Origin: Calothrix sp. PCC 7103
Lineage (GTDB): Bacteria; Cyanobacteriota; Cyanobacteriia; Cyanobacteriales; Nostocaceae
Assembly (NCBI RefSeq): GCF_000331305.1
Contig: NZ_KB217478.1
Coordinates: forward strand, 5,429,595-5,493,594
Length of the DNA: 64,000 nt
Reading direction: 5' to 3'
Positions 1 to 64,000 of the stretch are shown here, in pieces; the stretch's first letter is position 1, and every line of letters starts with the position of its first letter. The notes beneath the pieces are model-generated. The model saw nothing but the letters and a program-made list of their open reading frames with translations, was not told the origin of the DNA and did no database searches. A program made the translations under genes and the position numbers.

Positions 1-2
1 GC

Positions 3-134
3 CAGCAATCGATGTTGGGACGTACTGGTGAAGAAATAGGTTTGACTGGAGAAGTTTCTGATTATTGGAATCCCTTGCAAGGTAAGATTGACCCAAGCAA
101 GCGCGCGACTTATGATAGCACTTCGATGAATTGA
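3..134 (+). CDS. gifA: Probable glutamine synthetase inactivating factor (IF7-type), C-terminal part
   Basis: Only the last 43 residues lie in the window; the start is off the left edge. The visible piece begins QQSMLGRTGEEIG and ends DPSKRATYDSTSMN. The QQSML-R-EIG pattern resembles, from memory, the small IF7 proteins that bind and inactivate cyanobacterial GSI when ammonium is plentiful. In Anabaena the IF7 gene lies beside glnA and converges with it, as here: this stop is 94 bases from the glnA stop. The family call is inference from that short similarity plus the position. The NtcA-repressed promoter that would support it is outside the window. Confidence 0.55.
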   Translation, partial: QQSMLGRTGEEIGLTGEVSDYWNPLQGKIDPSKRATYDSTSMN

Positions 135-158
135 AAGAATTTCTACGATAGTCAAGAA

Positions 159-183
159 AAAGCCACCCTTTAGAGGTGGCTTT
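159..183. terminator. Bidirectional hairpin terminator between gifA-like gene and glnA
   Basis: A perfect 9-bp stem (AAAGCCACC at 159-167, GGTGGCTTT at 175-183) with a 7-base loop sits between two convergent stops. It is followed by a T-rich run on the plus strand and preceded by A-rich sequence that gives a U-tract on the minus strand, so it can serve both genes. Confidence 0.8.
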
Positions 184-228
184 GTTTTTGGGAATGTTTT
201 TGGAAAGAACTTAAGTCCTTTATTACTA

Positions 229-1647
229 CTAGCAGTCGTAGTAGAGTGCGAACTCATGGGGGTGAGGACGCAAACGCATGGGGTTGACTTCGTTATCTAT
301 TTTGTAAGCTATCCAGTTTTGGATGAAGTCTTCGCTAAATACACCACCCTCTGTTAAGAAAGCATGGTCTTTCTCTAATGCTTCGAGTGCTGCATCAAGT
401 GAACCTGGGGTTGAAGGAACTTTTGCTAGTTCTTCTGGTGATAATTCGTAGATGTTTTTATCTAAAGGTTCGCCTGGATCTATTTTATTCTTGATACCGT
501 CTAAACCTGCACATAACATTGCTGCAAATGCTAAGTATGGGTTAGAGGTCGCATCTGGACAACGGAATTCTAAGCGTTTTGCTTTGGGATTGGTGCCAGA
601 TAATGGAATACGAATAGAAGCTGAACGGTTACCTTGGGAGTATGCTAAGTTTACAGGCGCCTCATAACCAGGAACTAAGCGCTTGTATGAGTTAGTGGTA
701 GGGTTAGTTATCGCTAATACAGCAGGTGCGTGCTTGAGCAAACCACCAATATAATGTAAAGCAGTTTCACTTAAACCAGCATATTTATCGCCAGCAAATA
801 ATGGTTGACCATCTTTCCAAATCGACTGGTGACAGTGCATACCAGAACCATTATCACCAAATACAGGTTTGGGCATGAAGGTTACGGTTCTGCCATACTT
901 TTTAGCGACGTTCTTGATGACATATTTATAAGTCATCAACCAGTCAGCAGCTTGGATTAATTTACCAAACTTGAAACCTAGTTCGCACTGACCACCAGTG
1001 GCTACTTCGTGGTGATGTTTTTCAATGGGGACACCTAACTTCGCCATTGTTAACAGCATCTCTGTCCGCATGTCTTGGAAAGTGTCGGTAGGAGCTACTG
1101 GAAAATAACCTTCTTTGAAGCGGGGTTTGTAACCTAAGTTTCCACCAGCTTCTGTTCTACCTGAATTCCATTTACCTTCGATAGAATCTACATAGTAGTA
1201 ACCAGAACTGGAATTTTGGTCGAAGCGAACATCATCAAAAATGAAAAATTCTGCTTCTGGCCCAAAAAATACTGTATCGCCAACACCAGTAGAAATTACA
1301 GAATCTACCGCGCGTTGAGCAATTTGACGAGGACAACGGTCGTAAGGTTCACCAGTACGAGGCTCAATAATGCTACAAACTATTGAGAGCGTTGGCTCTT
1401 GCATGAATGGGTCTATCCATGCTGTATCTGGGTCGAGAACCATCGACATGTCACTAGCTTCAATTCCTTTCCAACCCCGAATACTCGAACCGTCAAAAGG
1501 TACACCTTCGGTGAAGCTGCTTTCATCGATTTGGTTTTGGTACACCGTTAAGTGCTGCCAAGTTCCCAACATATCGATGAACTTCAGGTCAATCATCTGA
1601 ATGTTGTTGTCTTTAACCAACTTCAGGACTTCTTGTGGGGTTGTCAT
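229..1647 (-). CDS. glnA: Glutamine synthetase type I
   Basis: At 472 residues this is the normal length for a dodecameric GSI, which joins ammonium to glutamate using ATP and feeds GS-GOGAT nitrogen assimilation in the cytoplasm. Visible signatures are the beta-grasp start ([14 protein letters not shown]), the DGSSIRGW segment, the metal and glutamate site [20 protein letters not shown], the ATP-site region [20 protein letters not shown], and NRSASIRIP. The tyrosine that enteric bacteria adenylylate is present in [11 protein letters not shown], but cyanobacteria regulate GS with small IF proteins, and a likely one lies next to it. Expression should be NtcA-dependent (see 1748-1789). Confidence 0.98.
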
Positions 1648-1747
1648 GGTTACTCCTTATCTGCCTAATTACTTTACAGTCAATTCATAAAGCCCAAAGC
1701 AATAGCTGACCCTGCTTGGCTAAACCAAATTTTTACACACCTGGATT

Positions 1748-46831: not shown

Positions 46832-46893
46832 GGTGACAGAATAATAAGTACTATCTATATATACTTATTATTCCCTATGTAGATAAAAAATTA

Positions 46894-47095
46894 CCTTTGC
46901 GTCCTTCGCGTCCTTTGCGGTTATTTTTTCAACTCCCTACTCTGTGTCCTCTGTGTCTCTGTGGTAAATAAATTAATATTTAGAGATTTTTGCAAACAAA
47001 GCAAGTTGATCAGATTCTTCGCTTTGCTCAGAATGACATTTTGTATCTTAAAAAAGTCACTATATTTGCAACGGGCAAGGATGCCCGTTCCACAA
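46894..47095. repeat. Cluster of four dispersed repeats downstream of the AarF gene
   Basis: In order: GCGTCCTTCGCGTCCTTTGC at about 46899, CTCTGTGTCCTCTGTGTCTC at 46940, the half family A palindrome at 47013-47038, and a family B hairpin (AACGGGCAAGGATGCCCGTT, 47070-47089). No gene lies between 46832 and 47113. Confidence 0.7.
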
Positions 47096-47113
47096 CAAGA
47101 ATCATCTTACAAA

Positions 47114-49108: not shown

Positions 49109-49450
49109 GAACTACCACCACAGCTATATTGTTAAGTATTGTAACAAGTAATAAATTAATATTAAATTAATTACACCAAGGCGCCTCTATATTTCAGCTT
49201 AACTTGCTTCAGTAAAAGGGATGTACCCAAAAAACCGCCAATATTATGTTAGCGAGCCGACAATAAGCAGTCACGAGGCATTAGAGATACAACATTGGGT
49301 ATAGGAGTGAGTACTAAAATTTGTACTTAAACCAAGCTTTGTCACTGATTATTGCGACAAAAGTAAAACCATACCAGGTTTGATAAACTCATACTTGACG
49401 GGATAATTTGATGGTATCCCGCTTCTCAAAAGGCACGGAGATTTAGCTGG
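49109..49450. other. Divergent promoter region between AarF kinase and recN
   Basis: 342 bases without a gene. A dyad AGTAC-N8-GTACT at 49310-49327 lies 124 bases before recN. Its half-sites match the cyanobacterial LexA box, but the spacing is 4 bases longer than the known box, so SOS control is only possible. Confidence 0.4.
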
Positions 49451-51217: not shown

Positions 51218-51280
51218 TGAACGGATGTAACGGATGATTTTGCCCTTATCCGTTACATCCGTTGTATCCGTTGCCAAATT
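51188..51280. repeat. AACGGATGTAACGGATGA short tandem repeats, both orientations
   Basis: At least four AACGGATG units run through the recN stop. They are followed by the inverted set TCCGTTACATCCGTTGTATC at about 51249, giving a long imperfect hairpin. The same unit forms the tail of the PLP gene at 8291-8324. Confidence 0.8.
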
Positions 51281-51332
51281 TACATTTTGAAACAATTATC
51301 GGAAATTTGGGAATCATAACTGTAGTAAAACT

Positions 51333-52082
51333 ATGGGCAGTAGTATTGAGAAGTCCCAAATGAACGATAAGTTACACTTGAATGGGCTACTTGAAGAAAT
51401 TTATCAACAGCTATTACCCCAGGTGAAGGTCGAAAGCGTTCACCCTCACGACCCGGTAGAAGTTGATAATTTGCCTCAACCCTGGCGCGTGTTAGGCAGA
51501 GGTAATTATGCTGCGGTATTTTGTCATCCTGATTACGCAGATGAAGTTGTAAAAATTTATGCACCGGGACGAGAGGGTTTTGAGGAAGAGATACAAGTGT
51601 ACAGTCGTCTTGGAGAGCATCCAGCATTTTCTCAATGCTATTATGCCAAACCAAACTTTTTAGTTTTAAAGCGTTTACTTGGTACAACTCTATACGACTG
51701 TATCCAACGAGGTATGCGGATACCGAAGCAAGTTATAGATGATATTGATGAAGCATTAGAATACGCACGAAAAAAAGGACTTTATCCTCACGATATTCAC
51801 GCGCGTAATGTGATGATGCATGAAGGTAGAGGTTATGTGGTAGATATATCAGACTTTCTTCATCAAGAGAGTTGCTCGAAATGGGACAACTTTAAAAAAG
51901 CATACTATTGGCTCTACCGTCCTATACTGCGTCCACTTGGGCTACGGGTACCTTACTTCGTCCTTGATATCATCCGCAAGGGTTATCGTGCTTTTTCTAC
52001 GTTCACAAAAAGTTGTCATCGACAATTAGGGATGTTACTTGGTCACAAATCTTCAAAACATCTCAAACGCTTTAAAAGATAG
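51333..52082 (+). CDS. RIO-like atypical protein kinase
   Basis: The 249-residue protein has a glycine loop VLGRGNYAAVF, a beta-3 lysine in DEVVKIYAPG, and a catalytic loop YPHDIHARNVMM. The metal-binding motif reads VVDISDFLHQ, that is DIS rather than DFG, as in RIO-like kinases. The C-terminal 60 residues are basic (SFTKSC and LGHKSSKHLKRFKR) and may bind nucleic acid or membrane. Target unknown. It follows recN after a repeat-filled gap and is probably separate from it. Confidence 0.8.
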   Translation: MGSSIEKSQMNDKLHLNGLLEEIYQQLLPQVKVESVHPHDPVEVDNLPQPWRVLGRGNYAAVFCHPDYADEVVKIYAPGREGFEEEIQVYSRLGEHPAFSQCYYAKPNFLVLKRLLGTTLYDCIQRGMRIPKQVIDDIDEALEYARKKGLYPHDIHARNVMMHEGRGYVVDISDFLHQESCSKWDNFKKAYYWLYRPILRPLGLRVPYFVLDIIRKGYRAFSTFTKSCHRQLGMLLGHKSSKHLKRFKR

Positions 52083-52267
52083 TTAACCTGTTTATATTAA
52101 AAAATTATTGCTCTTGAATTAATTTAATACATTTTTCGCATAGCAGTAAATATAACCTGCGGAAGCTTATATTTAGCTGAATTCAGCCCTCAGAAAGATG
52201 GAGAATAAGTCATTTATTTCTTACTCTTTCAATTAAGGAATATAAAACCACATGAGGGCAAATAATT

Positions 52268-53251
52268 ATGGTACTTCATAAACTTGGAGATTTCGATCCA
52301 GATTACCGCCAGACTTTTGAAGGAAATGATATCAAAGGTTTGAGTGTTTATGCTGAAGCAAGCGATGAAAAAATTGGTACTATCAGCGATGTATTAGTAG
52401 ACGAAGAAGGTCGTTTCCGCTATTTTATTGTTGATTTAGGCTTTTGGATTTTTGGTAAGAAGGTATTATTACCAGTTGGTCGCTCACGCATCGACCATAC
52501 TGCTGACCGTGTTTATGCTATTGGTATGACACGTGAGCAAGCAGATGCACTACCAGAATTTAATAACGATCTTGCTATAGATTACGATTACGAAGAGAAT
52601 GTTCGCGGAGTTTATCGCGGTTCATCCAGCAATGTTCGTACTTCTGATGTAACAAGTACTGCACCCCTAGAAGCATCAACACCATTAGATGCATCAATGC
52701 CTCTCGATGCTTCCACAGCAGCAATGGGTACAGCATATACTACAGGCACCGCCGCAGTTCCAGCACCTGCATCTGAATCACGTAAAATTGCTGACACACC
52801 TATCTACAATCGTGATGCATATACATACAAAGATGAACCATCATTGTATGACCTGAATGAGCAAGACCACCAAACATTACGTTTATACGAAGAACGTTTA
52901 GTTGCCAACAAGCAGCGTCGTAAATCAGGTGAAGTTGCCATTGGTAAGCATGTTGAGACAGAAACCGCGCGAGTTGCCGTTCCAGTTGAAAAAGAAAGAG
53001 TAGTTGTTGAGCGTGTAACTCCTACTGATGCAGGTAGAGCAGTAACTCCCGACGCAACCGCATTCCGCTCTGGTGAAGTAGCTCACGTAGATATTTACGA
53101 AGAAACTCCTGATATCCATAAAGAAACTGTTGTTCGTGAAGAAGTTCGCGTTAGTAAAGTTGTAGACCAAGATACAGTCGAAGCACAAGAAACAATTCGT
53201 CGTGAAGAATTAGACGTAAATGCTCCTGGTCTCGATGTTGATCAACGCTAA
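52268..53251 (+). CDS. PRC-barrel and DUF2382 stress protein
   Basis: The 327-residue protein has an N-terminal PRC-barrel (about 20-90: NDIKGLSVYAEASDEKIGTI, then RYFIVDLGFWIFGKKVLLPV). An Ala/Thr/Ser linker follows (130-190), then a DUF2382 domain (LRLYEERLVANKQRRKSGEV, then TETARVAVPVEKERVVVERV, ending VVREEVRVSKVVDQDTVEAQ). DUF2382 proteins respond to desiccation, cold and osmotic stress in cyanobacteria. A second family member follows at 53435. No signal peptide. Confidence 0.88.
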   Translation: MVLHKLGDFDPDYRQTFEGNDIKGLSVYAEASDEKIGTISDVLVDEEGRFRYFIVDLGFWIFGKKVLLPVGRSRIDHTADRVYAIGMTREQADALPEFNNDLAIDYDYEENVRGVYRGSSSNVRTSDVTSTAPLEASTPLDASMPLDASTAAMGTAYTTGTAAVPAPASESRKIADTPIYNRDAYTYKDEPSLYDLNEQDHQTLRLYEERLVANKQRRKSGEVAIGKHVETETARVAVPVEKERVVVERVTPTDAGRAVTPDATAFRSGEVAHVDIYEETPDIHKETVVREEVRVSKVVDQDTVEAQETIRREELDVNAPGLDVDQR

Positions 53252-53285
53252 GAAATTTCAAAAATTATCTTGTACACTCCTCTTG

Positions 53286-53352
53286 TGGGGTGGGCATCCT
53301 TGCCCGCCCTAAAGTAAGAAATAAAACAGTCAGGAATGCCTGTTCCACAAGA
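53286..53352. repeat. Two family B repeats in tandem
   Basis: GGGGTGGGCATCCTTGCCCG at 53286 and AACAGTCAGGAATGCCTGTT at about 53324, between the two DUF2382 genes. The second is imperfect. Confidence 0.65.
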
Positions 53353-53434
53353 TTGATATATTAAAACCTTTTTTAAAACCTTTTTTATAAAGAAAAAATA
53401 AATTTACATTTATAAATTTACCAAGGATTGAGTT

Positions 53435-54331
53435 ATGACAGTCGCTTCAGAAAACGTGAGTAATTTACATAGTACAGATAAACAAGCACAAATTATATCT
53501 TTACTAACCAATCTCAATAAAAAAATCAGAAATTTTGCTGTAGTTGATAGAGAGTTAGAGGAGGTTGGCGCCGTTAAAGATGTGATAATTGACTCTAATC
53601 GCCAAATTAGCTTTATTATAACTGACCATCAAACTACACCAAGACTATTTATACTAAAGGGTCAACACGTTCAAAAAATAGACCCACAGCTTAGAAAAAT
53701 CTTTCTAATTATAGATAGTACACAAATCAAGAACCTACCAGAATATCAAGAACGAAACATGGAAATAAATACAGACGCGCAAGGTTTATCTTCAGATAGC
53801 TACGTTGCAGATTCTCATATAGCTGATGCTAAATCAGAAATACATACGCATCAAACGACCTTGCAAAGCGAAGACGTAATTAAGTTACTTGAAGAACGGT
53901 TAGTTGTTGACCGCACTAAGCGAAAAATTGGTGAAATAATTGTTCGTAAAGAAATTGAAACCCGAATGGTGACAATTCCTGTTCGTCGTGAAAGATTAAT
54001 TGTAGAACAGTTAAGTCCCGAACATAAGCAACTCGCAAATATTGACTTAGGGGAAGAACAATTAACGCACGAAGAGTCAATACCAGTTAGCTCAACTCCA
54101 GCAATGCCATTAACGACTAGTTTTGAAGGTAGCTTGACTGTTACTGGAGAGTTCAGTTCGCCAAAAGTCGCAAGTTTGTTACTTAATGCTATTGCCTTGG
54201 AGCGTAATCATGGTTGTCAACGAATACAAGTTACTATCGCTGTTGATAATGAGCAACTTCAACAAAAATACCAAGAATGGTTTGCACGTACTTCCATTGG
54301 AAACCGTCAGAACAATGGTAATGGAAAATAA
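53435..54331 (+). CDS. PRC-like and DUF2382 protein, second copy
   Basis: The 298-residue protein has a diverged PRC-like start (NKKIRNFAVVDRELEEVGAV and KDVIIDSNRQISFIITDHQT) and a DUF2382 core near 148-195 (VIKLLEERLVVDRTKRKIGE, IETRMVTIPVRRERLIVEQL). The rest (SFEGSLTVTGEFSSPKVASL, then LLNAIALERNHGCQRIQVTI) is a different alpha/beta domain not found in the first copy. It is probably a divergent duplicate serving the same stress response. Confidence 0.8.
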   Translation: MTVASENVSNLHSTDKQAQIISLLTNLNKKIRNFAVVDRELEEVGAVKDVIIDSNRQISFIITDHQTTPRLFILKGQHVQKIDPQLRKIFLIIDSTQIKNLPEYQERNMEINTDAQGLSSDSYVADSHIADAKSEIHTHQTTLQSEDVIKLLEERLVVDRTKRKIGEIIVRKEIETRMVTIPVRRERLIVEQLSPEHKQLANIDLGEEQLTHEESIPVSSTPAMPLTTSFEGSLTVTGEFSSPKVASLLLNAIALERNHGCQRIQVTIAVDNEQLQQKYQEWFARTSIGNRQNNGNGK

Positions 54332-54512
54332 AGAATTTATTAAATTATGAAACAATTTATGCAATTTGGGCGCCATGTGGCTGCCTTTTTTTTGGTTGAT
54401 GTAAAAGTTATAATTCTTAATATATGGTTTTTACCTAGAAAAATTCGGAATAACCCCGTTAGCTAGTTGTTAAAAGTTGTAGGCTAGAATAGTGGGTATT
54501 TTGATATAAGCA

Positions 54513-54830
54513 ATGAATTCGGTGTATATCCTTGTCGTGGTGGTTTTAGCTACGGGCGGGATAATAGGGAGTGTTGGTGACAAATTCGAGAAAAGAGTTC
54601 GTAAACAGCGCTTATCGCTATTTTTCCTGCGTCCAAAACATCCAATTTTACTGATAGCTTTTTTTACAGGCGTACTTATTTCAGCTTCAACGCTTTTTAT
54701 TGTGTTTGCTGCTGATGCGGGGTTGCGAGACACGGTGTTTCAAATTGATGCTTTGCAGAGGGATATTAGTCTTAAGCAGGAAGAGTTGGATGTGTTAATT
54801 AGGCAGATTCAAAGTTTGGGGAATGCTTAG
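54513..54830 (+). CDS. Short DUF3084-like membrane protein
   Basis: The 105-residue protein has two membrane helices: YILVVVVLATGGIIGSVGDK and LLIAFFTGVLISASTLFIVF. RKQRLSLFFLRPKHP lies between them, and a helix FQIDALQRDISLKQEELDVL ends it. This is the N-terminus of DUF3084, but full family members run to about 400 residues. The frame ends in a proper stop with a family B hairpin after it, so it is either a natural short form or an old truncation. Confidence 0.7.
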   Translation: MNSVYILVVVVLATGGIIGSVGDKFEKRVRKQRLSLFFLRPKHPILLIAFFTGVLISASTLFIVFAADAGLRDTVFQIDALQRDISLKQEELDVLIRQIQSLGNA

Positions 54831-54844
54831 GCATGTTTGGGAAT

Positions 54845-54869
54845 GGGGCGGGCTTTCTATGCCCGCTCC
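54845..54869. repeat. Family B palindrome
   Basis: GGGGCGGGCTTTCTATGCCC, closing with GCTCC. It lies between the convergent DUF3084-like and histidine kinase genes. Confidence 0.7.
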
Positions 54870-54894
54870 ACAAAAGAGTAAGTATACAAAAATA

Positions 54895-56256
54895 CTATAC
54901 TAGGGGTAGTAGTATTTCAAATTCGGTTCCGGCGCCTGGTTTAGAGTGAATTTTAAATTTGCCACCGTGTCTTGCTGTAATAATACGGTAGCTAGCGGCG
55001 AGGGTTGTTTCTTTGTCTGCACGCTTTTCGACCGAAAATGATTCGATTATTTGTTGTTGGGTTTCTTCGGATATTGCCTTGCTGTTATCGGCGATTCGTA
55101 CTGAAACCCAGCGTGAGTCAACTGCGCTACTTGTTGTTGGTGGCAAAGAAATTACCTCGGTTATAATCTCAATTCGAGGTTTTTCTTGCTTACAAGTGAT
55201 ATCAAGATTATTATATTGCTGTCGGATTGCTTCATCGAGTAGGCTATCGACTGACCGACTCAAAATATTCATAAATACTTGATTGAGTTGCCCTAGGAAA
55301 CAATATACAGGGGGTAATGACCCATAATTTCTAATTATTTCTATTTCACCTTTGACTCGGCTATTAATCAATAAGATAACGTTTTCAATTATTGTGTGTA
55401 TATCTGCTGGTTTGGGGTAAACTGCATCAATATGACAAAAGTTTTGTAAACTGGTTACAAGTTTTTTGAGCCGTTCTGCTCCTGTTCGGATACTTGTAAG
55501 CGATTTATTTAAGTCTTGCTCTAAAAAATCAAATTCTATATCTTGCATCAAATAGACGATATGTTCTGAGGGGTTGACTAATTCCCGGTTATAAGCAGCA
55601 ATCAGTTTTAATAAGTCTTGGGTATAGTTAGAAACGTGGGTTAAGTTACCCCATATAAAATTTACTGGGTCAAGAATTTCGTGGGCGACTCCATCGACTA
55701 ATCGCCCTAGAGAAGCCATTTTGTCGTTTTGGATAATTTGCGCTTGGCTACGTTCGTACCTGACTTGTGTTTCTATACCCCGAATTTGCCATGATGCAAT
55801 ATTTAATTCTGATATATCAAGTAAGCAATAGGTACCTTCAGACGATTTGACAACAACAGGTTCGCTCACTAGTTCAGGAGAACGTCTTAATGCTAGTTGC
55901 ATTGCCGTCAAAATAGAAGTTGTCTCAGACAAAAGTAACACACCAGTCCGGGCATAACTGTAAAGAATACTCAGGGGTTGCTCAAAAAACATTTCCTTCC
56001 CAAACGGGCGAATTAAAAATTCTAATAACTGGCGCCGCGAAAGCATTCCTATGTAATTACCGTCTTCGAGTAGTATCACCCCAGGTACAAGCGGGTATTT
56101 CTCAAACACTTGAGCAACACAGGCGCCTGTACAGGATGTTTTGACCTCGAATGTGTATAATGACAATTCTTGCAGCGTAGAGTCTAGACTTAGATCACCT
56201 CTATTGCCTTCGATAAGAATTGGCGCATTGATTTCGGAAACAAATTCTTGTTGCAC
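54895..56256 (-). CDS. CBS-like sensor histidine kinase with degenerate ATP-binding site
   Basis: The 453-residue protein has an N-terminal CBS-pair-like region (about 25-155: VAQVFEKYPLVPGVILLEDG, then NYIGMLSRRQLLEFL) and a coiled linker. H-box: GVAHEILDPVNFIWGNLTHV. The ATPase half is worn: the N-box reads MNILSRSVDSL with arginine where the second asparagine is expected, G1 reads ADNSKAI for DNGPGI, and the G2 lid reads KETTLAASYRII for GTGLGLxxxxxI. It probably does not bind ATP well and may be a pseudokinase or phosphatase-like dimerisation partner. Confidence 0.85.
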   Translation of the reverse strand: MQQEFVSEINAPILIEGNRGDLSLDSTLQELSLYTFEVKTSCTGACVAQVFEKYPLVPGVILLEDGNYIGMLSRRQLLEFLIRPFGKEMFFEQPLSILYSYARTGVLLLSETTSILTAMQLALRRSPELVSEPVVVKSSEGTYCLLDISELNIASWQIRGIETQVRYERSQAQIIQNDKMASLGRLVDGVAHEILDPVNFIWGNLTHVSNYTQDLLKLIAAYNRELVNPSEHIVYLMQDIEFDFLEQDLNKSLTSIRTGAERLKKLVTSLQNFCHIDAVYPKPADIHTIIENVILLINSRVKGEIEIIRNYGSLPPVYCFLGQLNQVFMNILSRSVDSLLDEAIRQQYNNLDITCKQEKPRIEIITEVISLPPTTSSAVDSRWVSVRIADNSKAISEETQQQIIESFSVEKRADKETTLAASYRIITARHGGKFKIHSKPGAGTEFEILLPLV

Positions 56257-56791
56257 TCTAGACCCTGATTATTCATTAATTTACGTTCTTAAAATATTGC
56301 TAACGATAAATCGCTAGCTCTTCTAGGCTATTTCAGTTTTGCGTTTTGCGGTATGTGGAAAATAGGGAATAGCAATTTTGTGCCAATTGGTAAACCTCCG
56401 AGCCATTTTGATTTTAAAAGCTTTGTAAAATATCAATAAAATTACGTAAAGTTTTCTTTTTTATGAGCAATTTTACTGTAAGTATATTCATGGCTAGATA
56501 AATATTGTATGTAAGTATCATCATCAATGAACAAATACTATGCTGTTATTTCTGATGTAATCTATATATAATTCATGATACATTTGTATAATTTTTTACA
56601 AAAATATGTCCAAACTAAGTATGGAACAATAATTATTAGTAAGTAGACAATGTAACAAGTGCTACTTTAATTTCAACGTCAAACTCTGTTTAAGTTATAT
56701 TTAATTACCTGTACTTGTTTTTGATCCCCATTTCGATACAATGCGGGAACATAACTATTAATGCTAATCTCCGCTTTGCTCCAGCACACTT
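56257..56791. other. Divergent intergenic region
   Basis: 535 A/T-rich bases between the kinase and the permease. I see no coding frame, tRNA or clear operator. ATACATTTGTAT at about 56579 is a short palindrome. No Zur-type 7-1-7 palindrome was found before the permease. Confidence 0.5.
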
Positions 56792-57847
56792 ATGAATCAA
56801 CTGAGTAACGGTTTTACGATATTTCTAAGTTTATTAGTCGAGGCGATACCATTTTTGCTGCTTGGGGTTTTGTTCTCTAGTGTGCTGCTGTTCATGGTTG
56901 ATGAGCGCAAGCTAGTTGAAAGAATGCCAAGGAACCCTTTATTGGGGGCATTTGTTGGTAGTTTAGTAGGCTTTTTGTTCCCTGTCTGTGAATGTGGCAA
57001 CGTTCCAGTCGCTCGTCGTTTGTTGATGCAAGGGGTTCCTACATCCGTTGCAATTGGCTTTTTGTTAGCGGCGCCTACAATAAACCCGATTGTAATTTGG
57101 TCTACATGGACGGCATTTCGCGACCAGCCAGAAATTGTAGTGCTACGGGTAGTATTTTCCTTGGTAATAGCAACAATCGTTGGTTGGGTATTTAGCTTTC
57201 AAAAAGATTTAACGCCACTAGTGCAACCAGCTATCGCGCGCTATCTCAAATTCAACCCACCCCCACAACAATCGTCAAAACGTCGTAGTGGCACAGGGCA
57301 AAATACTAGAGTGCAAACGGGTAATTCAACATTATTACAGTCGGGCACTTATATTTTGGGTGGTTCGTCTTCTGGTCAAATTACTCGTATCGACACAACT
57401 CCAGAAGAAGTGGCAATCGCCAATCAAACAAAACCAATGTCTGATAAATTGCGCCTGGTGTTGGATAATATTATTCAGGAACTGCGCGAGTTAGGGGCAG
57501 TAATGGTTATAGGTAGTGCAGTTGCAGCAGCGATTCAAGTACTTGCACCTCGCGATATAATATTGAGTCTGGGCGCCGGAACCGTAAGTTCAATCGTCGC
57601 AATGCTTGTACTAGCAGTAGTAGTATCGATTTGTTCTACAGTAGATTCATTTTTTGCCTTGTCATTTGCTTCTGCTTTCACAAGTGGTTCATTGCTAGCA
57701 TTTCTGGTATTTGGGCCAATGGTGGATATTAAAGGTATTGGGCTGATGCTATCAATTTTTAAGCCACGAGCATTGTTTTATTTATTTACATTGGCAGGAC
57801 TACTAACATTTTTGATGACGCTATTTTTGAATTTACACGTCTTTTAA
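56792..57847 (+). CDS. YraQ/DUF318 family permease
   Basis: The 351-residue protein has about eight helices. It has the family motifs LLVEAIPFLLLGVLFSSVLL and FPVCECGNVPVARRLLMQGV, with Cys-x-Cys, then VPTSVAIGFLLAAPTINPIV and later STVDSFFALSFASAFTSGSL. A hydrophilic loop of about 75 residues separates the halves. The CECG motif suggests metal or metalloid handling, as in ArsP, but the substrate is not known. The stop is 6 bases before the TIGR03943 gene, so they form a unit. Confidence 0.88.
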   Translation: MNQLSNGFTIFLSLLVEAIPFLLLGVLFSSVLLFMVDERKLVERMPRNPLLGAFVGSLVGFLFPVCECGNVPVARRLLMQGVPTSVAIGFLLAAPTINPIVIWSTWTAFRDQPEIVVLRVVFSLVIATIVGWVFSFQKDLTPLVQPAIARYLKFNPPPQQSSKRRSGTGQNTRVQTGNSTLLQSGTYILGGSSSGQITRIDTTPEEVAIANQTKPMSDKLRLVLDNIIQELRELGAVMVIGSAVAAAIQVLAPRDIILSLGAGTVSSIVAMLVLAVVVSICSTVDSFFALSFASAFTSGSLLAFLVFGPMVDIKGIGLMLSIFKPRALFYLFTLAGLLTFLMTLFLNLHVF

Positions 57848-57853
57848 TATCAA

Positions 57854-58627
57854 ATGACTAGTCAAACGAATACTAAACCCAAAATTTCTCCGAAACTTCT
57901 AGCTTGGCTCGATGTTGTAGCAATTGGTTCTTGGGGAGTTTTGATGTTGAAATACTGGCAAACTGGTAAATTAAACATTCTAATTCACCCTGATTATTTT
58001 TGGTTAATAATTGTCGCGAGCATAGGATTATTATTAGTTGCTTTTTTAAAGGCTAAAGAGTTGTTGCAAAGGCGCCGCTATAACGAAATAGTAGGCGCCC
58101 AACACATAGCAGTTTTTCCTCCTGGTTGGAGTAGTTCGTTATTAATAATTACAGCGCTTCTAGGGTTTTTTATTACACCCCAAGTTTTTGCCTCTTCTAG
58201 CGCGATGGATAGAAGCGTCACCGAGTTACTCGGACCTACACGTTCCCAACCGCAAGCTTTCCGTGCTTCAGTTCGTCCAGAAGAAAGGTCATTAGTCGAG
58301 TGGATACGGACTCTTAGTGTTTACCCAGAACCTGATGCTTATACAGGGCAAAGAGCAAAAGTTCAAGGTTTTGCCATGTATCCCAAAGATATTGGTCAAG
58401 ACTTTATGATGCTGTCAAGGTTTGTAATTACTTGTTGTGCTGCTGACGCTTATCCAGTAGGAATACCCGTCAAACTATCTGAAGGTCGAGATAAATACCC
58501 CGCTGATAAATGGTTTGAGGTTGAAGGCAAAATCATTACAGAAACCTTTAATGGAAAACGTCACCTCACCATTAACGCTACATCTATTAAAGAAATTCCA
58601 CAACCAAAAAATCCTTACAGTTCATAA
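57854..58627 (+). CDS. TIGR03943 family permease-associated protein
   Basis: The 257-residue protein has three or four N-terminal helices (LLAWLDVVAIGSWGVLMLKY, then DYFWLIIVASIGLLLVAFL, then SSLLIITALLGFFITPQVFA) and a soluble domain with FAMYPKDIGQDFMMLSRFVI, TCCAADAYPVGIPVKLSEGR. The TCC motif and pairing with DUF318 permeases define the family, called a putative permease subunit. Some such pairs are zinc-regulated in other bacteria; no Zur site was seen here. Confidence 0.88.
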   Translation: MTSQTNTKPKISPKLLAWLDVVAIGSWGVLMLKYWQTGKLNILIHPDYFWLIIVASIGLLLVAFLKAKELLQRRRYNEIVGAQHIAVFPPGWSSSLLIITALLGFFITPQVFASSSAMDRSVTELLGPTRSQPQAFRASVRPEERSLVEWIRTLSVYPEPDAYTGQRAKVQGFAMYPKDIGQDFMMLSRFVITCCAADAYPVGIPVKLSEGRDKYPADKWFEVEGKIITETFNGKRHLTINATSIKEIPQPKNPYSS

Positions 58628-58633
58628 AACCCA

Positions 58634-58648
58634 AGAAACCCGGTTTCT
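58634..58648. repeat. AGAAACCCGGTTTCT palindrome before an ATG
   Basis: Lies 7 bases after the TIGR03943 stop and 4 bases before the next ATG, like the copy at 17212, so it fills the ribosome-binding region. Confidence 0.85.
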
Positions 58649-58652
58649 ACAA

Positions 58653-60155
58653 ATGGCTAGAAAAAAGTTTTCATTATTACCTATTGACCGTATTTCTATT
58701 GCCCTGATATTAATAATATCTGTACTAATTGGTATACTACTTATCCAAGGTGATGTTGTTAGGGCAAGCGTCAGAAACTTTAGTTGGGAAAATCAAAAAG
58801 TCGGCGCCGATGATACTTCTTTCAGCATGACATTTAGTCGTCCAATGGATGCTAAAAGTGTTGAAAATAATTTTAAAATAGACCCACCATTAGCTGGGAA
58901 GTATAGCTGGGCAGGACGACGGATGGTGTACACGCTGTTAACTCCGGCGCCTTATGGTACAAATTATAAAGTTCAATTACAGGGAGCAGTCGATAAGTTT
59001 GCCAAAAAACAGGGTAAAAACTTAACGCTTCAACCTTTTTCAGGCGCCTTCCGCACGCGCGACCGTGCGATTCTTTATATTGGTGCGACAGGAGAAGAAC
59101 AAGGAAGGTTAGTACTTCAGAACTTGACGCAAAACCAAAAAACAGTCCTTACTCCCAAAGACCTAGCGGTTATGGACTTTAAACCTTATCCAGAAGGAGA
59201 TAAAGTTTTATTCTCTGCACGTGCGAAAACAAACCAAGATTTGCTCTCCAGCAAAATATATACTGTCACAACCGGCTTTCCGAGTAAACCCACCGAAGAA
59301 GCACAACCCGCAAGTCGAGTGGACTTGGTACTAGATAGCGATGGGTATCAAAATTTAAAATTCGATTTATCACCCGATGGCAAGACTATTGTTATTCAAC
59401 GTGGCAAAAAAGATAGTCCTGGTGACTTTGGGTTATGGTTTATGTCCGCACATAAAGATTCTTCCGAAGGAAGTAAACTTACTCGTCTAGAAAGTCAACC
59501 AAGTGGAGACTTTTTAATTACTCCCGATAGTAAAGGGGTAGCTGTTGCTCAAGGTGAAGGTGCAGCAATTTTGCCATTACAAAAAGACGGTAGCAAACCA
59601 CTTGACTTTTTACCTCAGTTTGGCTTAGTACAAGCGTTTTCTAAAGATGGGACACAAGCTGCGATGGTTAAGTTTAACCGCGACTTTCAAAACCCGACTC
59701 GCTCGTTATTTTTAGTCACAAACCAAGGTGTAAACAAAGAACTGATAAAAACCACAGGTACAATAATGGGTTGTCAATTTGACACGGCATCTCCGAACCT
59801 TTACTGTTTAATTACCCAATTATTACCTGGCGATCAATTTTTGGAACAGCCATATTTTATAGCCATTAACTTAAAAACAGGGCAACAAAAAGCATTACTA
59901 GTTCTTCCAGCAGGGCAACGTAATATACAAATGAGTCTTGCACCCGATGGTTTAGGTTTGCTGTTCGACCAAGTAGTAAGCCAAGAAGGTGGCGTCTCAA
60001 CAACTAGCAACTTAAAAACCTCATCAGGTGAAACAATATCAGGCAGTAGTCTTTGGCTAATGCCCTTGCTACCCGTTGCCGACACATCAAATGCCGCCGA
60101 AATAAAACCCGAACAACTACCAATAGCTGGCTTTTACCCACGTTGGCTCCCTTAA
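58653..60155 (+). CDS. Secreted Ig-like and beta-propeller protein
   Basis: The 500-residue protein has an N-terminal membrane anchor (ISIALILIISVLIGILLIQG) and a Big_5-like Ig domain (about 35-130: DDTSFSMTFSRPMDAKSVEN, then YKVQLQGAVDK). A series of four-stranded TolB/WD-like repeats follows (LKFDLSPDGKTIVIQRGKKD, then FLITPDSKGVAVAQGEGAAI, then MSLAPDGLGLLFDQVVSQEG). It is likely extracytoplasmic. The ATG at 58653 fits the anchor; a longer frame from 58515 overlaps the TIGR03943 gene and is rejected. It may be the exported partner of the permease pair. Confidence 0.75.
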   Translation: MARKKFSLLPIDRISIALILIISVLIGILLIQGDVVRASVRNFSWENQKVGADDTSFSMTFSRPMDAKSVENNFKIDPPLAGKYSWAGRRMVYTLLTPAPYGTNYKVQLQGAVDKFAKKQGKNLTLQPFSGAFRTRDRAILYIGATGEEQGRLVLQNLTQNQKTVLTPKDLAVMDFKPYPEGDKVLFSARAKTNQDLLSSKIYTVTTGFPSKPTEEAQPASRVDLVLDSDGYQNLKFDLSPDGKTIVIQRGKKDSPGDFGLWFMSAHKDSSEGSKLTRLESQPSGDFLITPDSKGVAVAQGEGAAILPLQKDGSKPLDFLPQFGLVQAFSKDGTQAAMVKFNRDFQNPTRSLFLVTNQGVNKELIKTTGTIMGCQFDTASPNLYCLITQLLPGDQFLEQPYFIAINLKTGQQKALLVLPAGQRNIQMSLAPDGLGLLFDQVVSQEGGVSTTSNLKTSSGETISGSSLWLMPLLPVADTSNAAEIKPEQLPIAGFYPRWLP

Positions 60156-60159
60156 TAAG

Positions 60160-60252
60160 TGCTGAGTGTAAAGTGCGCTCGTGCTGAGTAGTACATTATA
60201 ATTTTTAACTCTTAACTCTTTCTTCCACTCAGCATTCAGCACTCAGTACTTT
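60160..60252. repeat. GTGCTGAGT repeats in both orientations
   Basis: GTGCTGAGTG at 60159 and about 60181, answered by CACTCAGCATTCAGCACTCA at about 60226. It makes an imperfect hairpin in the 250-base gap after the propeller gene. Confidence 0.65.
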
Positions 60253-60407
60253 CTATTTTTATAAGTACAATTAGTGCTATAAAATACTATAAACAGGTTT
60301 GTAAGCCCTAGGTCGCTTCAAGAGTGTTCTAGGTAAAATTTTATAAGAAATGCGCTGAAAACCCTTGCTCTTGACACCGAAATAATTTTTAAACTTGTGG
60401 GTGAGTG

Positions 60408-61928
60408 ATGAATGAAACTAACACCCCAGATAATGGGGCTACCGAACAACCAACATTATCTGAGACAACCGCACAATCTGAGCCTATAGATTGCCCGTTT
60501 TACTCGGTTGTGCCGCATAATTTGACAAATCAAATCTTGACAAATACAACCCATGTGTCAAGCGAAGAGGGTAATGACGCTGATTTTAAGCAGCAGGTTT
60601 TCACCTTAAATGAAGAACAATGGGAAAGTCAGGTAATTACAACCCCTGAAATATCAGAAAATAATGACAATCAGGCGCCATCAAAAGATTGGGTAGCAGA
60701 ACCAGACAGTGCCAAATTAGCAGCAATTGATGCAGAATTTCAACAAATGCTCGCGTTAAACCATGAGTTACGAGCAGCAAACGATAAACTATATAGTCAA
60801 GTAGAAGAATTAACGTCTCGTTTGGCAGAGTCTGAAAAAGCTGTGCAGTTTCAGCAAAAGCGTTATAGCGTCACTGAAGCAATGCTGAAACAACAAACGC
60901 AAGAACTTTGTGCCACCCAAGAACAAGTTCAATCACTTTATCAGCAATTAGACAATTCTTTACAAAACGTTCAACGTCAAGAAACTTTAGTTGAGACGTA
61001 TAAAGCTCAGTTAGAATTTAATCAACAGCGTCTCGCACAGTTAGAGCGAGAATGCGCGAACTTGCAAGCTAACTATAGTTCGCAGTCACAGCAACTAATT
61101 CAGTCAGAAACTGCGTGTAAAGAACTGCGGACAAGGTTAATGAGACAGCAGCGTCAAACATTGCAGTTTAAGGCAGCACTTGAAAAATGCCTAGACCCGA
61201 TGTCTGTTGTCGAAAGCGATGATAACGAATCTCCAACGTGTCAAACTACAGTTAACGATTCTCCTTCTCTGAAAAAATTTAAGTCTTTGTTCGTAAGTGC
61301 CCAACCTATAAAACCCTGGTCAGCTTCAGGAGATTTTGATTCTGTAGAGCAAAGTATCGAACCACTAAACGAAAATACAATTGTACCACAAGATACACCC
61401 GCACAACCAGAAGCATTAGAGGCACCACCTCAACAAGAAGCACATCCTGCTGACAACTTAGATGAGCAAATCGACAGCGTAATTCAAATGTACTTTGTCT
61501 CTCAATCAGCACCAGTTTCTGACAAAGTGAATATAGAACAACATATAATAGAAGCAAAAGAGACAACTTCCTTTAAAGAAGCAGAAGACATATGGGATAC
61601 AGTAGCGGACGAAGTTGAAACTCAATCATTCAATTTTACAAGTCAACAAGCAGATAGAAATAGTACAAATAATGATACAGCAATTACTCCAGAAATAGTT
61701 ATTGAGAATAACTCAATTCCAAATGCCGTGGAAGATGATTACTGGGCAGAAGTCTCGCAGCTAACACATTTAGATTTACCAGCCACAGAATCACCGCATC
61801 ATCCTTCCCATAATATAGATGATGCAAATTCTCCTTCACCAGTAGTTTACCCTAGGCGCCCACCCAAAGGACGTAAATCATTATCCTCCGTACAATTACC
61901 TAAATTTCCTCCAAAACCTCAACAGTAA
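60408..61928 (+). CDS. Long coiled-coil hypothetical protein
   Basis: The 506-residue protein has an acidic, disordered start and a coiled coil at about 105-265 (LRAANDKLYSQVEELTSRLA, then QTQELCATQEQVQSLYQQLD). A low-complexity acidic region follows, and a basic, proline-rich end (YPRRPPKGRKSLSSVQLPKF). It has no enzyme motif. The basic tail could bind DNA, RNA or a membrane. It precedes a RecB-like nuclease on the same strand by 64 bases and may share its transcript. Confidence 0.65.
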   Translation: MNETNTPDNGATEQPTLSETTAQSEPIDCPFYSVVPHNLTNQILTNTTHVSSEEGNDADFKQQVFTLNEEQWESQVITTPEISENNDNQAPSKDWVAEPDSAKLAAIDAEFQQMLALNHELRAANDKLYSQVEELTSRLAESEKAVQFQQKRYSVTEAMLKQQTQELCATQEQVQSLYQQLDNSLQNVQRQETLVETYKAQLEFNQQRLAQLERECANLQANYSSQSQQLIQSETACKELRTRLMRQQRQTLQFKAALEKCLDPMSVVESDDNESPTCQTTVNDSPSLKKFKSLFVSAQPIKPWSASGDFDSVEQSIEPLNENTIVPQDTPAQPEALEAPPQQEAHPADNLDEQIDSVIQMYFVSQSAPVSDKVNIEQHIIEAKETTSFKEAEDIWDTVADEVETQSFNFTSQQADRNSTNNDTAITPEIVIENNSIPNAVEDDYWAEVSQLTHLDLPATESPHHPSHNIDDANSPSPVVYPRRPPKGRKSLSSVQLPKFPPKPQQ

Positions 61929-61992
61929 AGAGGAATTACTAACGTTTCAAATAAACTATCATGAACATAACGTACCAACGTTAAGTGTACTT

Positions 61993-62835
61993 ATGTTATT
62001 TGATGAAACCCATCTTATGCGACTGTCGCAGGGACAACTTAATACATTAGAAAAGTGTCCACGACAGTTTCAGCATACTTATTTAGAGCAACTTTACTCT
62101 CCTGTTGACCCAGACCACGATGAAAAGCTAATGCTGGGAAGTCGGTTTCACTTACTCATGCAGCAACGTGCGATGGGTTTATCTATCGATAGTTTTTTGG
62201 AAACTGATGCTCAATTACGCGGTTGGATAGATGGACTTAGTACTGTGGCGCCGTTTATTTTAGAGAAAACGAGTGATGAAACCTTCAAAGAAAGCGAACA
62301 CTATCGAACTCTACAATTTCAAGATTACTTACTCACGGTTGTTTACGATTTGTTGATTGCTGATAATGTACAAGCACAAATCTTAGATTGGAAAACTTAT
62401 CCAAAACCGCAAAATTCGCGTTACTTAGAACAAAACTGGCAAACAAAGCTTTATTTATTCGTTTTGGCAGAAACTAGCCAATATGTGCCAGAAAATATTT
62501 CTATGACCTATTGGTTTGTTCAGCCTCATGATAAACCAAAAAGCATAAAATTTAATTACAGCACCGCCCAACACGAACAAACAAAAAATAAATTAAATCA
62601 ATTAGTTACTCAACTAAATCGATATATAACTGCATATTACCAAGGAAAAGATTTTCCACAAGTTCCTGAAGGTAGTAAAATATGCGACAACTGCCAATTT
62701 GCAGCACGGTGTAATAGAAATAACTTGCCCATTAGCAACTCTCAACAGACTCTCTCCTTAGCATTAGACCCTTCCTTACTCGACTTAGTTACGATTGAAG
62801 AAGTACCTTTAAAAGTAGAAAGTGCTGAGTGCTGA
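61993..62835 (+). CDS. PD-(D/E)XK nuclease with Cas4/AddB-like cysteine cluster
   Basis: The 280-residue protein starts with RLSQGQLNTLEKCPRQFQHT, the RecB/Cas4 opening. LMLGSRFHLLMQQRAMG supplies the catalytic histidine, LTVVYDLLIADNVQAQILDW and KTY give the D and D-x-K, and QNWQTKLYLFVLAE the QxxxY-like helix. Cysteines at residue 22 and in KICDNCQFAARC (C-x2-C-x5-C) can hold a 4Fe-4S cluster. It is thus a stand-alone RecB-family nuclease; no CRISPR array or cas gene is near. The last residues (ESAEC) come from the GTGCTGAGT repeat. Confidence 0.82.
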   Translation: MLFDETHLMRLSQGQLNTLEKCPRQFQHTYLEQLYSPVDPDHDEKLMLGSRFHLLMQQRAMGLSIDSFLETDAQLRGWIDGLSTVAPFILEKTSDETFKESEHYRTLQFQDYLLTVVYDLLIADNVQAQILDWKTYPKPQNSRYLEQNWQTKLYLFVLAETSQYVPENISMTYWFVQPHDKPKSIKFNYSTAQHEQTKNKLNQLVTQLNRYITAYYQGKDFPQVPEGSKICDNCQFAARCNRNNLPISNSQQTLSLALDPSLLDLVTIEEVPLKVESAEC

Positions 62836-62846
62836 GTGCTGAGTGA
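62822..62846 (+). repeat. GTGCTGA tandem repeat across a stop codon
   Basis: Three copies of GTGCTGA(G) run through the nuclease stop and into the gap before the GNAT gene. The same unit occurs at 60160-60252. Confidence 0.75.
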
Positions 62847-62862
62847 GATATGAGTAAGTTTT

Positions 62863-63528
62863 ATGCAATTTGATAATAATGACACAGTGTTTGTCCGTGA
62901 GTTAGGAATTGATGATATTGCTGCTATTTATCATTTAGGGGAAGAATTATTTACAAGTGATTTATACCCGTATTTATACCGCACGTGGGATGAATGGGAA
63001 GTAATAGGACTTTATAACACCGACCCAGAATATTGCTTAGTTGCTGAAATTGATGGTGAACTTGCTGGATTTATTTTGGGAACGATTATTACTAAAGCTA
63101 CCTGGACTTATGGTTATATTCTATGGTTAGGAGTTAATCCAAAGTTTCAGCGTCGTGGTGTGGCTGACAAACTGGTAGATAAAGCTATTTCTCGCATGAT
63201 TGAAGACGGCGCCCGTTTTATGCTTGTAGATACCGACCCAGCGAATGCACCCGCTCTTAAGTTTTTTAACCGCAAAGGTTTTGGTAACACGCGCGAGCAT
63301 ATTTTTCTATCGATGAATTTGAGTAAGCACGAGCATTACGGCAGGTTAATAGAATACGAGCATCAAAAAGCAGAACGTGCAGGATATCGGAGAGTAGCAA
63401 GGGAGCGGAGTAGACGTAACCCAACTTTGCGCGCAGGTAAGCCAGATGCAGGCGCCAGAGATGTTGTTTTGAATCCCCTCGTCAACGATATTCCGTCAGT
63501 GGATGAAACATCTAACAGCCAGGATTGA
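62863..63528 (+). CDS. GNAT acetyltransferase with basic C-terminal extension
   Basis: The 221-residue protein has a GNAT fold: VFVRELGIDDIAAIYHLGEE, YCLVAEIDGELAGFILGTII, and the acetyl-CoA loop NPKFQRRGVADKLVDKAISR. DPANAPALKFFNRKGF completes the RimI-like pattern. A 60-residue basic tail (AERAGYRRVARERSRRNPTL) is not part of the fold. The target is unknown. Confidence 0.88.
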   Translation: MQFDNNDTVFVRELGIDDIAAIYHLGEELFTSDLYPYLYRTWDEWEVIGLYNTDPEYCLVAEIDGELAGFILGTIITKATWTYGYILWLGVNPKFQRRGVADKLVDKAISRMIEDGARFMLVDTDPANAPALKFFNRKGFGNTREHIFLSMNLSKHEHYGRLIEYEHQKAERAGYRRVARERSRRNPTLRAGKPDAGARDVVLNPLVNDIPSVDETSNSQD

Positions 63529-63604
63529 AAAAACACCTCGCACAATGTAAAAAAAAGTTATGCTAACTTTTATGAAGATTTAAGAATTTGGGGAGAACAC
63601 GGCA

Positions 63605-64000
63605 ATGGAACTATCTCCATCGGTTAAGTACGGGTTGAATTTCGTCCACCCAGTTCTGATGTGGGGGTTATTATTAGTATCACTGTACGCAGCTTATCTG
63701 GGTTTAAAAATACAACGTACCCGTAGCGCGCAAGGTGAAGAAAAGAAAGAGCTAATCAAAGGACGTTATAATGTTCGTCACTTTCAAATTGGTTCTTTGC
63801 TATTAGGCTTTATGGTGGCTGGTTCGGTAGCGGCGATGGGTGTGACTTATATTAATAACGGTAAGTTATTCGTTGGTCCCCACTTGCTTATAGGACTTGG
63901 AATGACAGTTCTAATTGCGTTTTCAGCATCACTTTCTCCTTTGATGCAAAAAGGCGCCAATTGGGCACGCATGACGCATATTTTAATCAATTTCACTATA
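63605..64000 (+). CDS. DUF4079 membrane protein, 5' part
   Basis: The first 132 codons are in the window and the frame is open to the edge. It starts MELSPSVKYGLNFVHPVLMW behind a GGGGAG ribosome site. Three or four helices are visible, with RYNVRHFQIGSLLLGFMVAG and PHLLIGLGMTVLIAFSASLS. It is the same family as the gene at 32718, with histidines that could hold haem. Partners lie beyond the right edge. Confidence 0.82.
   Translation, partial: MELSPSVKYGLNFVHPVLMWGLLLVSLYAAYLGLKIQRTRSAQGEEKKELIKGRYNVRHFQIGSLLLGFMVAGSVAAMGVTYINNGKLFVGPHLLIGLGMTVLIAFSASLSPLMQKGANWARMTHILINFTI

Follow-up and report, generated by a model that had tools for sequence, protein, structure and literature searches.

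GGCGCC as the probable alternate highly iterated palindrome of the cyanobacterial genus Calothrix/Dulcicalothrix, with a candidate orphan HindV-type methyltransferase

What the highly iterated palindromes (HIPs) of cyanobacteria do has been a standing question since 1995. The present analysis concerns a 64,000-nucleotide stretch of the genome of Calothrix sp. PCC 7103 (contig NZ_KB217478.1, positions 5,429,595 to 5,493,594; hereafter the window), in which the hexamer GGCGCC is extremely frequent and HIP1, the octamer GCGATCGC, is nearly absent. The closest described case is the strain itself: Elhai 2015 (PMC4390886) assigns GGCGCC to Calothrix PCC 7103 as its alternate HIP, and the table in the part of the paper available to us lists 14 HIP1 copies for it, a value that we read as per Mb, with CAGGCGCC as its top 8-mer. 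The same part treats exceptional HIPs as sporadic and non-persistent, uses the non-persistence of alternate HIPs as one of two arguments for selection on HIP1, considers a second copy of the GrCGyC enzyme perhaps critical, and notes that for no GrCGyC enzyme is the methylated base known. It draws on one genome and 19 kb of Calothrix D253, compared with seven species here, and its sections deal in counts of deviations within a genome rather than in substitution spectra between species, which we computed. Selection is reported to keep HIP1 itself in place (Xu et al. 2018, as cited in the available part of PMC6604393). No other paper evidently on GGCGCC in Calothrix, or as a cyanobacterial palindrome, was found in a literature search that left subscription journals mostly outside. 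As a phenomenon, the swap of HIP1 for GGCGCC is already known, having been published in 2015 for one strain; what is new, as far as our searches reach, is the evidence that it persists throughout a clade, that the enzyme is an orphan and that the sites show a spectrum of protection.

The GGCGCC system resembles that of HIP1, with its methyltransferases DmtA and DmtC, in that both comprise a GC-rich palindrome that recurs about once per kb and is tied, by prediction in the case of GGCGCC, to solitary methyltransferases. They differ in the word and in the predicted methyltransferase, and no DmtC-like gene turned up in the genus at E<=1e-60. We consider it probable that GGCGCC is the alternate HIP of the entire genus Calothrix/Dulcicalothrix. 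According to this account, which is built on comparisons of sequences, the swap would already have been made in the common ancestor of the genus, and an orphan HindV-type enzyme would methylate the inner cytosine to yield GG(m5C)GCC (m5C, 5-methylcytosine). Deamination of m5C would constitute a leak at the central CpG, while a force specific to the site would hold off the remaining changes. The simplest such force would be purifying selection on the methylated site, the alternative methylation-directed repair at GGCGCC. In the version based on selection, methylated GGCGCC would do what HIP1 does in the relatives, a role that may lie in mismatch repair, chromosome order, DNA uptake or recombination.

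By exact search, the window (38.9% G+C) holds 101 copies of GGCGCC, one per 634 bases, where base composition predicts 3.44, and a sole copy of HIP1 at 32039..32046; the first-pass annotation, made from the window alone, had put these figures at about 100 against three or four and at one copy in that place, and was accurate on both. The sites are palindromic, occupying both strands, and have their first bases at 656, 1908, 2970, 3574, 4649, 5440, 5558, 6233, 7602, 8039, 8239, 9524, 9601, 10106, 10563, 10650, 10848, 10969, 11347, 12238, 13284, 13313, 14483, 15063, 15159, 16714, 17537, 17622, 19187, 19416, 19626, 20085, 20256, 20584, 20680, 21551, 22171, 22589, 24016, 24152, 25206, 26235, 26623, 28672, 29271, 31648, 32910, 32990, 33262, 34117, 34492, 35061, 35311, 36193, 36591, 36742, 38543, 38978, 39035, 39412, 39512, 39662, 40182, 40487, 40523, 41916, 42726, 43188, 43543, 44395, 44668, 45472, 46059, 46322, 47253, 47846, 48858, 49180, 50057, 50225, 50577, 50690, 50821, 53567, 54369, 54931, 56031, 56122, 57070, 57572, 58071, 58094, 58803, 58946, 59043, 60674, 61855, 62247, 63208, 63451 and 63953. 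As had also been noted, they lie both within and between genes: 91 fall inside open reading frames (ORFs) of at least 100 aa, which cover 83.7% of the window, and GGCGCC is therefore neither favoured nor shunned by genes. Their spacing is slightly more even than random (coefficient of variation 0.90 versus 0.996, standard deviation 0.047; one-sided P 0.014).

The same holds for the whole genome (G000; 11,584,393 bases in 12 contigs), with 17,704 copies of GGCGCC (1,528 per Mb, about one per 650 bases) and 163 of HIP1 (14.07 per Mb); neither is GGCGCC near expectation nor does HIP1 abound outside the window. The HIP1 density and the top 8-mer match Elhai's listing (available part of PMC4390886). 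For ratios of observed to expected counts (O/E) against a first-order Markov model, we used 464 kb of this genome, the window together with 20 stretches of 20 kb each, a sample richer in GGCGCC than the genome average. Here, GGCGCC ranks first among all palindromic hexamers (O/E 22.1), followed by CGCGCG (5.2), while HIP1 is at 0.9 (2 sites), or about 3 genome-wide by scaling. CGATCG (0.056), GATC (0.14), GGCC (0.12) and GACGTC (0.08) are scarce; the available part of Elhai 2015 (PMC4390886) likewise reports depleted GATC and CGATCG for this strain, together with GrCGyC-type methyltransferases. Extension of the sites, a check suggested by the first-pass annotation, brought out CAGGCGCC, the top 8-mer, and AGGCGCCT as rich contexts, the former at 221 per Mb in this GGCGCC-richer sample and at 159 in Elhai's table (available part of PMC4390886). 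A single conserved core longer than the hexamer was rejected; the flanking bases vary, and GGCGCC itself is the unit.

To place these numbers in the family, 217 genomes were surveyed, 210 of them outside the genus. The seven genus genomes are those of PCC 7103, Dulcicalothrix desertica PCC 7102 (G060), Calothrix sp. HK-06 (G061), NIES-4105 (G062) and PCC 7716 (G065), as well as two metagenome-assembled genomes (G063 and G064). All seven are rich in GGCGCC (7,475-20,380 copies, or 1,150-1,711 per Mb with the relatives' sizes rounded) and poor in HIP1 (31-163 copies). By comparison, the other 210 have 0-1,053 GGCGCC, with the maximum in a genome that has 1,270 CCGCGG (G084), and 209 of them have 535-8,803 HIP1, the exception being G182 with 30. 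Since the seven GGCGCC-rich species diverge down to 82% nucleotide identity, the enrichment is a trait of the whole genus and not of one strain, and the premise of non-persistence in Elhai 2015 is contradicted. The suggestion of a lineage with a different iterated palindrome and a different methyltransferase, which Elhai likewise makes for PCC 7103, is thus supported for a genus of seven species. Overall, GGCGCC shows what characterizes HIPs: it is a GC-rich palindrome with extreme overrepresentation, has a density within about 1000-2000 per Mb both in and between genes, and occurs where HIP1 is low. The genome does not display the HIP1/DmtC system, given its few HIP1 copies and the lack of a DmtC-like match in the genus. 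A transfer island in G004, with 11 of the 12 GGCGCC of that genome on C4:80227-94004, was considered and dismissed; this stretch has 51% G+C and an O/E of 1.48, which reflects composition. The exceptional G182, a 3.2-Mb genome of the same family with 15 GGCGCC, may belong to a symbiont that lost HIP entirely.

The methyltransferases of the HIP1 side were searched with L249, which we take to be a DmtC-like CGATCG methyltransferase, from the HIP1-rich G281 of another family (CGATCG O/E 14.9). With at most eight candidates scored per genome, relatives at E<=1e-60 occur in none of the seven genus genomes and in 190 of the 210 others (Fisher P 2e-7); compared with the fetched genus loci, L249 reaches 28-36% identity among the 25 matches listed.

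The genus instead offers another candidate. PF00145 has 15 matches in G000 and 89 across the genus, and among the groups that we formed by BLASTP, two C5 methyltransferase groups, B (L018) and C (L013), are common to all seven genomes. The group C protein L013, encoded at C7:8004469-8005407 of G000, is a HindV-type m5C methyltransferase of 313 aa. As a PF00145 enzyme with close relatives beside RE_HindVP, it falls into the HindV/HgiDI class: the genus enzyme is 65-72% identical to other cyanobacterial enzymes that adjoin this endonuclease in GRCGYC restriction-modification (R-M) systems. The site cut by HindV is GRCGYC. At five of the seven loci read in other genera (L101, L102, L104, L175 and L177, the last of them split), RE_HindVP lies directly upstream of the methyltransferase, with PF09519 E-values of 1.4e-143 to 1e-154 for the three upstream genes tested; PF09519 also has matches for G027, G006 and G049. 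The upstream gene is a different one at the Roseofilum (L110) and Planktothrix (L118) loci. Unlike these R-M systems, the genus lacks PF09519 in all seven genomes, compared with matches in 43 of the 210 other family genomes (42 over the Pfam cut-off), and shows enrichment, not avoidance, of one form of the recognition word. Therefore, the genus enzyme is an orphan rather than part of an R-M system. Because the target-recognition region is much alike in the orphan and R-M forms, its specificity probably stayed GRCGYC, as predicted, in accord with the depletion of GACGTC, GACGCC and GGCGTC in the G000 sample. Of the solitary GGCGCC methyltransferase that the first-pass annotation had proposed to look for, the solitary candidate was found, encoded in all seven genomes, and may be the enzyme able to modify the word that accompanies a HIP; the strict specificity did not hold up, as the predicted site is wider.

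At six genus loci, the gene is flanked by a RuBisCO-like gene and an SLH/GHL10 gene (names from G000), with two small ORFs intervening in NIES-4105 and a short downstream ORF in FI2-JRJ7. In HK-06, the orthologue is divided between the ends of two contigs, one of which carries the RuBisCO-like gene and the other a stretch of the downstream gene; HK-06 has another copy of the HindV-type gene at a separate locus. The genus enzymes form one clade (support 100/99), and the extra copies, of 59-61%, form another. Such a second GrCGyC-type copy, suggested to matter in the available part of Elhai 2015, was not found in two of the seven genomes, G060 and G063, which have one match each at E<=1e-30, and yet G060 has about 1,701 GGCGCC per Mb. 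Outside the genus, group C relatives were detected in 58 of the 210 family genomes (E<=1e-30, fragments counted). Seven of these (G019, G055, G066, G097, G124, G163 and G185) were left out as fragments, split copies or 32-36% relatives, and HindVP fragments were scored as HindVP. Among the 51 carriers of near-complete enzymes, the median GGCGCC density is 0.71 per Mb with HindVP (n=37) and 11.9 without (n=14; P 2e-4, uncorrected for relatedness). Loss of the endonuclease thus accompanies relief from GGCGCC avoidance, and is not sufficient for enrichment.

How the sites themselves evolve was read from substitutions between species. A 20-kb stretch of the window (40998..60997) served for finding orthologous regions in the other six species, its long matches being 93-96% identical in the five-species core. 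The six species were projected onto 810 kb of G000, with 63-188 kb aligned per species at 82-95% identity. Assigning a change to a branch required agreement among the remaining species present, at least two of them; expected changes were derived from all positions elsewhere that matched in trinucleotide, base change and synonymous, nonsynonymous or intergenic class. Across the five terminal branches of the core, C3>T/G4>A at GGCGCC was seen 42 times versus 33.0 expected (P 0.07 for excess). Every other change at an ancestral GGCGCC, taken together, came to 14 versus 84.4 (P 3e-21), which amounts to a roughly 6-fold suppression. A smaller data set yields 38 versus 28.4 for the former and 11 versus 78.3 for the latter (synonymous alone, 8 versus 63.9). 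In the form of the test applied to control words, where flanking CpG changes are split off as well, non-CpG changes number 11 versus 75.8 (ratio 0.15; synonymous, 8 versus 62.0) and CpG changes 45 versus 42.4. The same non-CpG ratio averages 0.97 in 114 control hexamers (standard deviation 0.26, minimum 0.42, maximum 1.89), and is 1.11 for all-GC hexamers except GGCGCC, 1.03 for words with GCGC, 1.44 for other GC-rich palindromes, 1.43 for CGCGCG, 0.91 for GCGCGC and 1.27 for near-sites. As the controls are unsuppressed, the protection is specific to GGCGCC and no effect of CpG or GC content.

This pattern is the one expected if the inner cytosine were methylated and the site otherwise held. 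Were the C>T rate at m5C some 7 times higher, a restraint of about 0.17 would give the observed 1.27; alternatively, a repair-based restraint would act on replication errors and not on deamination. Both readings need methylation of C3, as Elhai's model requires (available part of PMC4390886). On the longer branches of G062 and G063, C3>T/G4>A was seen 19 times versus 24.0 and other changes 21 times versus 69.1; the ratio for the latter climbs from 0.17 to 0.30, which purging alone does not predict. The words one base off GGCGCC (9 distinct ones, 18 by strand) agree with this: in the G000 sample, eight have an O/E of 0.13-0.58, compared with 1.28 for GGTGCC/GGCACC, and in five relatives GGTGCC/GGCACC is at 0.74-1.25 versus 0.00-0.68 for the others. 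Some of these depletions have their own cause, with GGGGCC containing the avoided GGCC and GACGCC being a GRCGYC site. CpG-holding near-sites underwent few CpG changes (1 seen versus 5.2 expected). Vsr-type T:G repair was rejected as the maker of GGCGCC, as it would deplete GGTGCC/GGCACC most, yet these are the only undepleted near-sites; the rejection is based on these counts, without a search for a vsr gene.

Losses of sites far outnumber gains. The five core tips have 55 single-step losses (40 of them to GGTGCC or GGCACC) and no single-step gain, the two outer tips 15 and none; on the seven tips together, multiply changed sites add 28 to the losses and 8 to the gains. The smaller data set has 49 losses and no gain, compared with a median gain/loss ratio of 1.00 in 118 common hexamers (5-95%: 0.51-1.76), and changes from strong to weak and from weak to strong bases are balanced (3,083 versus 2,987). 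Gains are hardly measurable, given that only 86 near-sites are shared by all others and are probably those that coding forbids to change. The core stem kept 21 sites, and a test for purging on internal branches was dropped for having too few events. C>T losses to GGTGCC/GGCACC affect 3.6-8.5% of sites on the core branches, whose divergence is 1.4-2.1%. On the two longer branches, which have diverged by 8.3% and 11.8%, the fractions are 4.9% and 7.9%; lost states appear to be short-lived.

The strongest rival is that of Elhai 2015 (available part of PMC4390886), proposed for this very strain, in which mismatch repair guided by G(m5C) makes GG(m5C)GCC out of near-sites and keeps it, and the abundance is a by-product without function. 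We regard it as possible, if rather unlikely. It requires methylation of the inner cytosine, and the spectrum points to the same base; the depleted near-sites and the seemingly short-lived lost states would also suit it. However, the model says that the bias stops at the observed density (same source), which would leave the sites no better protected than neighbouring bases, yet they are about 6-7-fold safer than context-matched positions, and none of the seven tip branches shows a single-step gain. Moreover, its two-copy trigger is unneeded, in view of the single matches in G060 and G063.

That another methyltransferase makes the mark, either group B (L018) or an N4/N6 enzyme, seems improbable to us. 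Group B is present in all seven genus genomes, and G000 has eight PF01555 matches. Of the two C5 enzymes found throughout the genus, however, the HindV-type one has a link, through the partner of its relatives, to a set of sites containing GGCGCC, and G284, a genome of another family with GGCGCC-type words, has a HindV-type relative that three congeners lack. Also against this rival, RCCGGY words are depleted in the G000 sample (ACCGGT 0.02, GCCGGC 0.22), which would suit group B as, presumably, a DmtD-like enzyme. We give still less credence to the idea that GGCGCC is a relic, made long ago and now decaying by deamination with no present maintenance. The excess of losses over gains on the five core branches, in both data sets, is what it would produce, but it would not bring about the 6-fold or so suppression of the changes outside the C3>T/G4>A class. 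C>T loss also does not grow with branch length, and simple decay therefore fits poorly, a point of moderate force: at the constant core rate, loss of about 38 of the 145 sites would be expected on the G062 and G063 branches, where we counted 9 clean single ones, or 19 by position, and scaling by background CpG changes predicts 30.5 (1.27 x 24.0) versus the 19 seen (P 0.02). An artefact of composition, codons or dipeptides is practically excluded, for although phase 0 (Gly-Ala) is the most frequent codon phase of the 91 sites in ORFs (42/24/25), the enrichment is 22.1-fold, extends to all three phases and to sites outside ORFs, and is not seen in the 210 other family genomes.

Several observations weigh against the account that we favour. 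The excess of C3>T/G4>A is not significant, so that the m5C reading rests on the contrast with the suppressed changes. The absence of gains alongside 55 and 15 losses on the tips is not easily given by selection at equilibrium, and the core stem, with two apparent gains from GGCACC, shows no loss. The specificity of the enzyme is a prediction, drawn from REBASE in Elhai 2015 and from the HindVP neighbour of its relatives here. The enzyme alone fails to explain the enrichment, because its target-recognition region looks much alike in relatives with depleted GGCGCC; the 14 non-genus genomes that have the enzyme without HindVP hold only 0.3-43 GGCGCC per Mb. Group B, searched in the genus only, is equally universal there. 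On the HIP1 side, 20 of the 210 family genomes lack a DmtC-like protein (E<=1e-60) and yet have at least 535 HIP1, which means that this protein is not strictly needed for HIP1, whereas its carrier G182 has only 30.

A second case comes from a phylum survey of 386 genomes, in which G284 and G420 were picked by eye for follow-up among the high counters, a set that also includes G262 and high-GC genomes rich in CCGCGG. G420, with 2,493 GGCGCC, was rejected as an independent case, its O/E being 0.95 in 56 kb. G284, a 3.8-Mb genome from another family of the order, has 9,489 GGCGCC versus 304-343 in its congeners G230, G281 and G295. In 97 kb of it (54% G+C), the top 8-mers are CGGCGCCG and CGGCGCTG/CAGCGCCG, at an O/E of 25; that of GGCGCC is only 3.9, and CGATCG is at 0.30, compared with the high value in G281. 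It has three PF00145 genes, one of which, L251, is 53% identical to group C and branches far from the genus enzymes; the group C enzyme was not found in the three congeners, nor was a HindVP gene among the neighbours seen of L251 at its locus. The swap in G284 is similar to, and not identical with, that of the genus.

Whether GGCGCC is, beyond this, a functional replacement of HIP1 seems to us an even matter. It would have arisen once in the genus, and a similar swap again in G284 (to CGGCGCCG and CGGCGCTG/CAGCGCCG), following the loss of the endonuclease from a HindV-type R-M system and of the CGATCG methyltransferase; the sites would be held except at the methylated inner cytosine, which would make the methylated base readable from spectra alone, and alternate HIPs would outlast speciation, contrary to the published view.

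Other palindromes of the window and genome appear to follow their own rules. The first-pass annotation had put CGCGCG and GCGCGC together at about 33; the enrichment of CGCGCG is real, and its 32 copies alone fit that figure, to which GCGCGC adds 19. In the genus, sampled in six genomes (all except G061), the enrichment of CGCGCG is 3.0-8.8-fold. Because it is not protected from mutation (6 changes seen versus 4.2 expected), it was rejected as part of the GGCGCC system and seems to be a separate phenomenon. The reversed word CCGCGG counts 8 in G000 and 1-8 per genome throughout the genus. Eco29kI cuts CCGCGG, and G000 carries an Eco29kI-like endonuclease gene (Pfam RE_Eco29kI 2.2e-61; PDB 3mx4 1.3e-29) beside m5C methyltransferase D (L019:964-2856; C12, near 1.2 Mb); CCGCGG, depleted for its own reason, was therefore discarded as a control word. 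Methyltransferase D is intact in six genus genomes and broken in HK-06, the endonuclease neighbour having been tested in G000 only. Further palindromes are nearly absent from the G000 sample, among them TTCGAA (1 seen, 146 expected), GCATGC (1, 97), CTCGAG (1, 39), ACCGGT (1, 53), AGGCCT (3, 72) and CTGCAG (6, 80); this suggests that restriction weighs, or once weighed, heavily on the genome. The gene of another m5C methyltransferase, group F (L012:1486-2694; C7:7848143-7849318), is in the course of loss in the genus: an in-frame TAA interrupts it in G000, three genomes (G060, G061 and G062) have it intact, G065 and G064 have a truncated or fragmentary form, and it was not found in G063. Finally, a 192-bp element at 46530-46721 of the window, with 27-nt terminal inverted repeats of 85% complementarity, looks like a miniature inverted-repeat transposable element and recurs in at least 10 further places in G000, and in more in relatives, among the matches listed.

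These results speak against the non-persistence argument for selection on HIP1 (Elhai 2015, available part of PMC4390886), and bear indirectly on which base GrCGyC enzymes methylate. Above all, a genus with another word, close relatives that can be aligned and a shared orphan methyltransferase makes the function of HIPs testable, that is, whether it lies in the sequence or only in methylated spacing.

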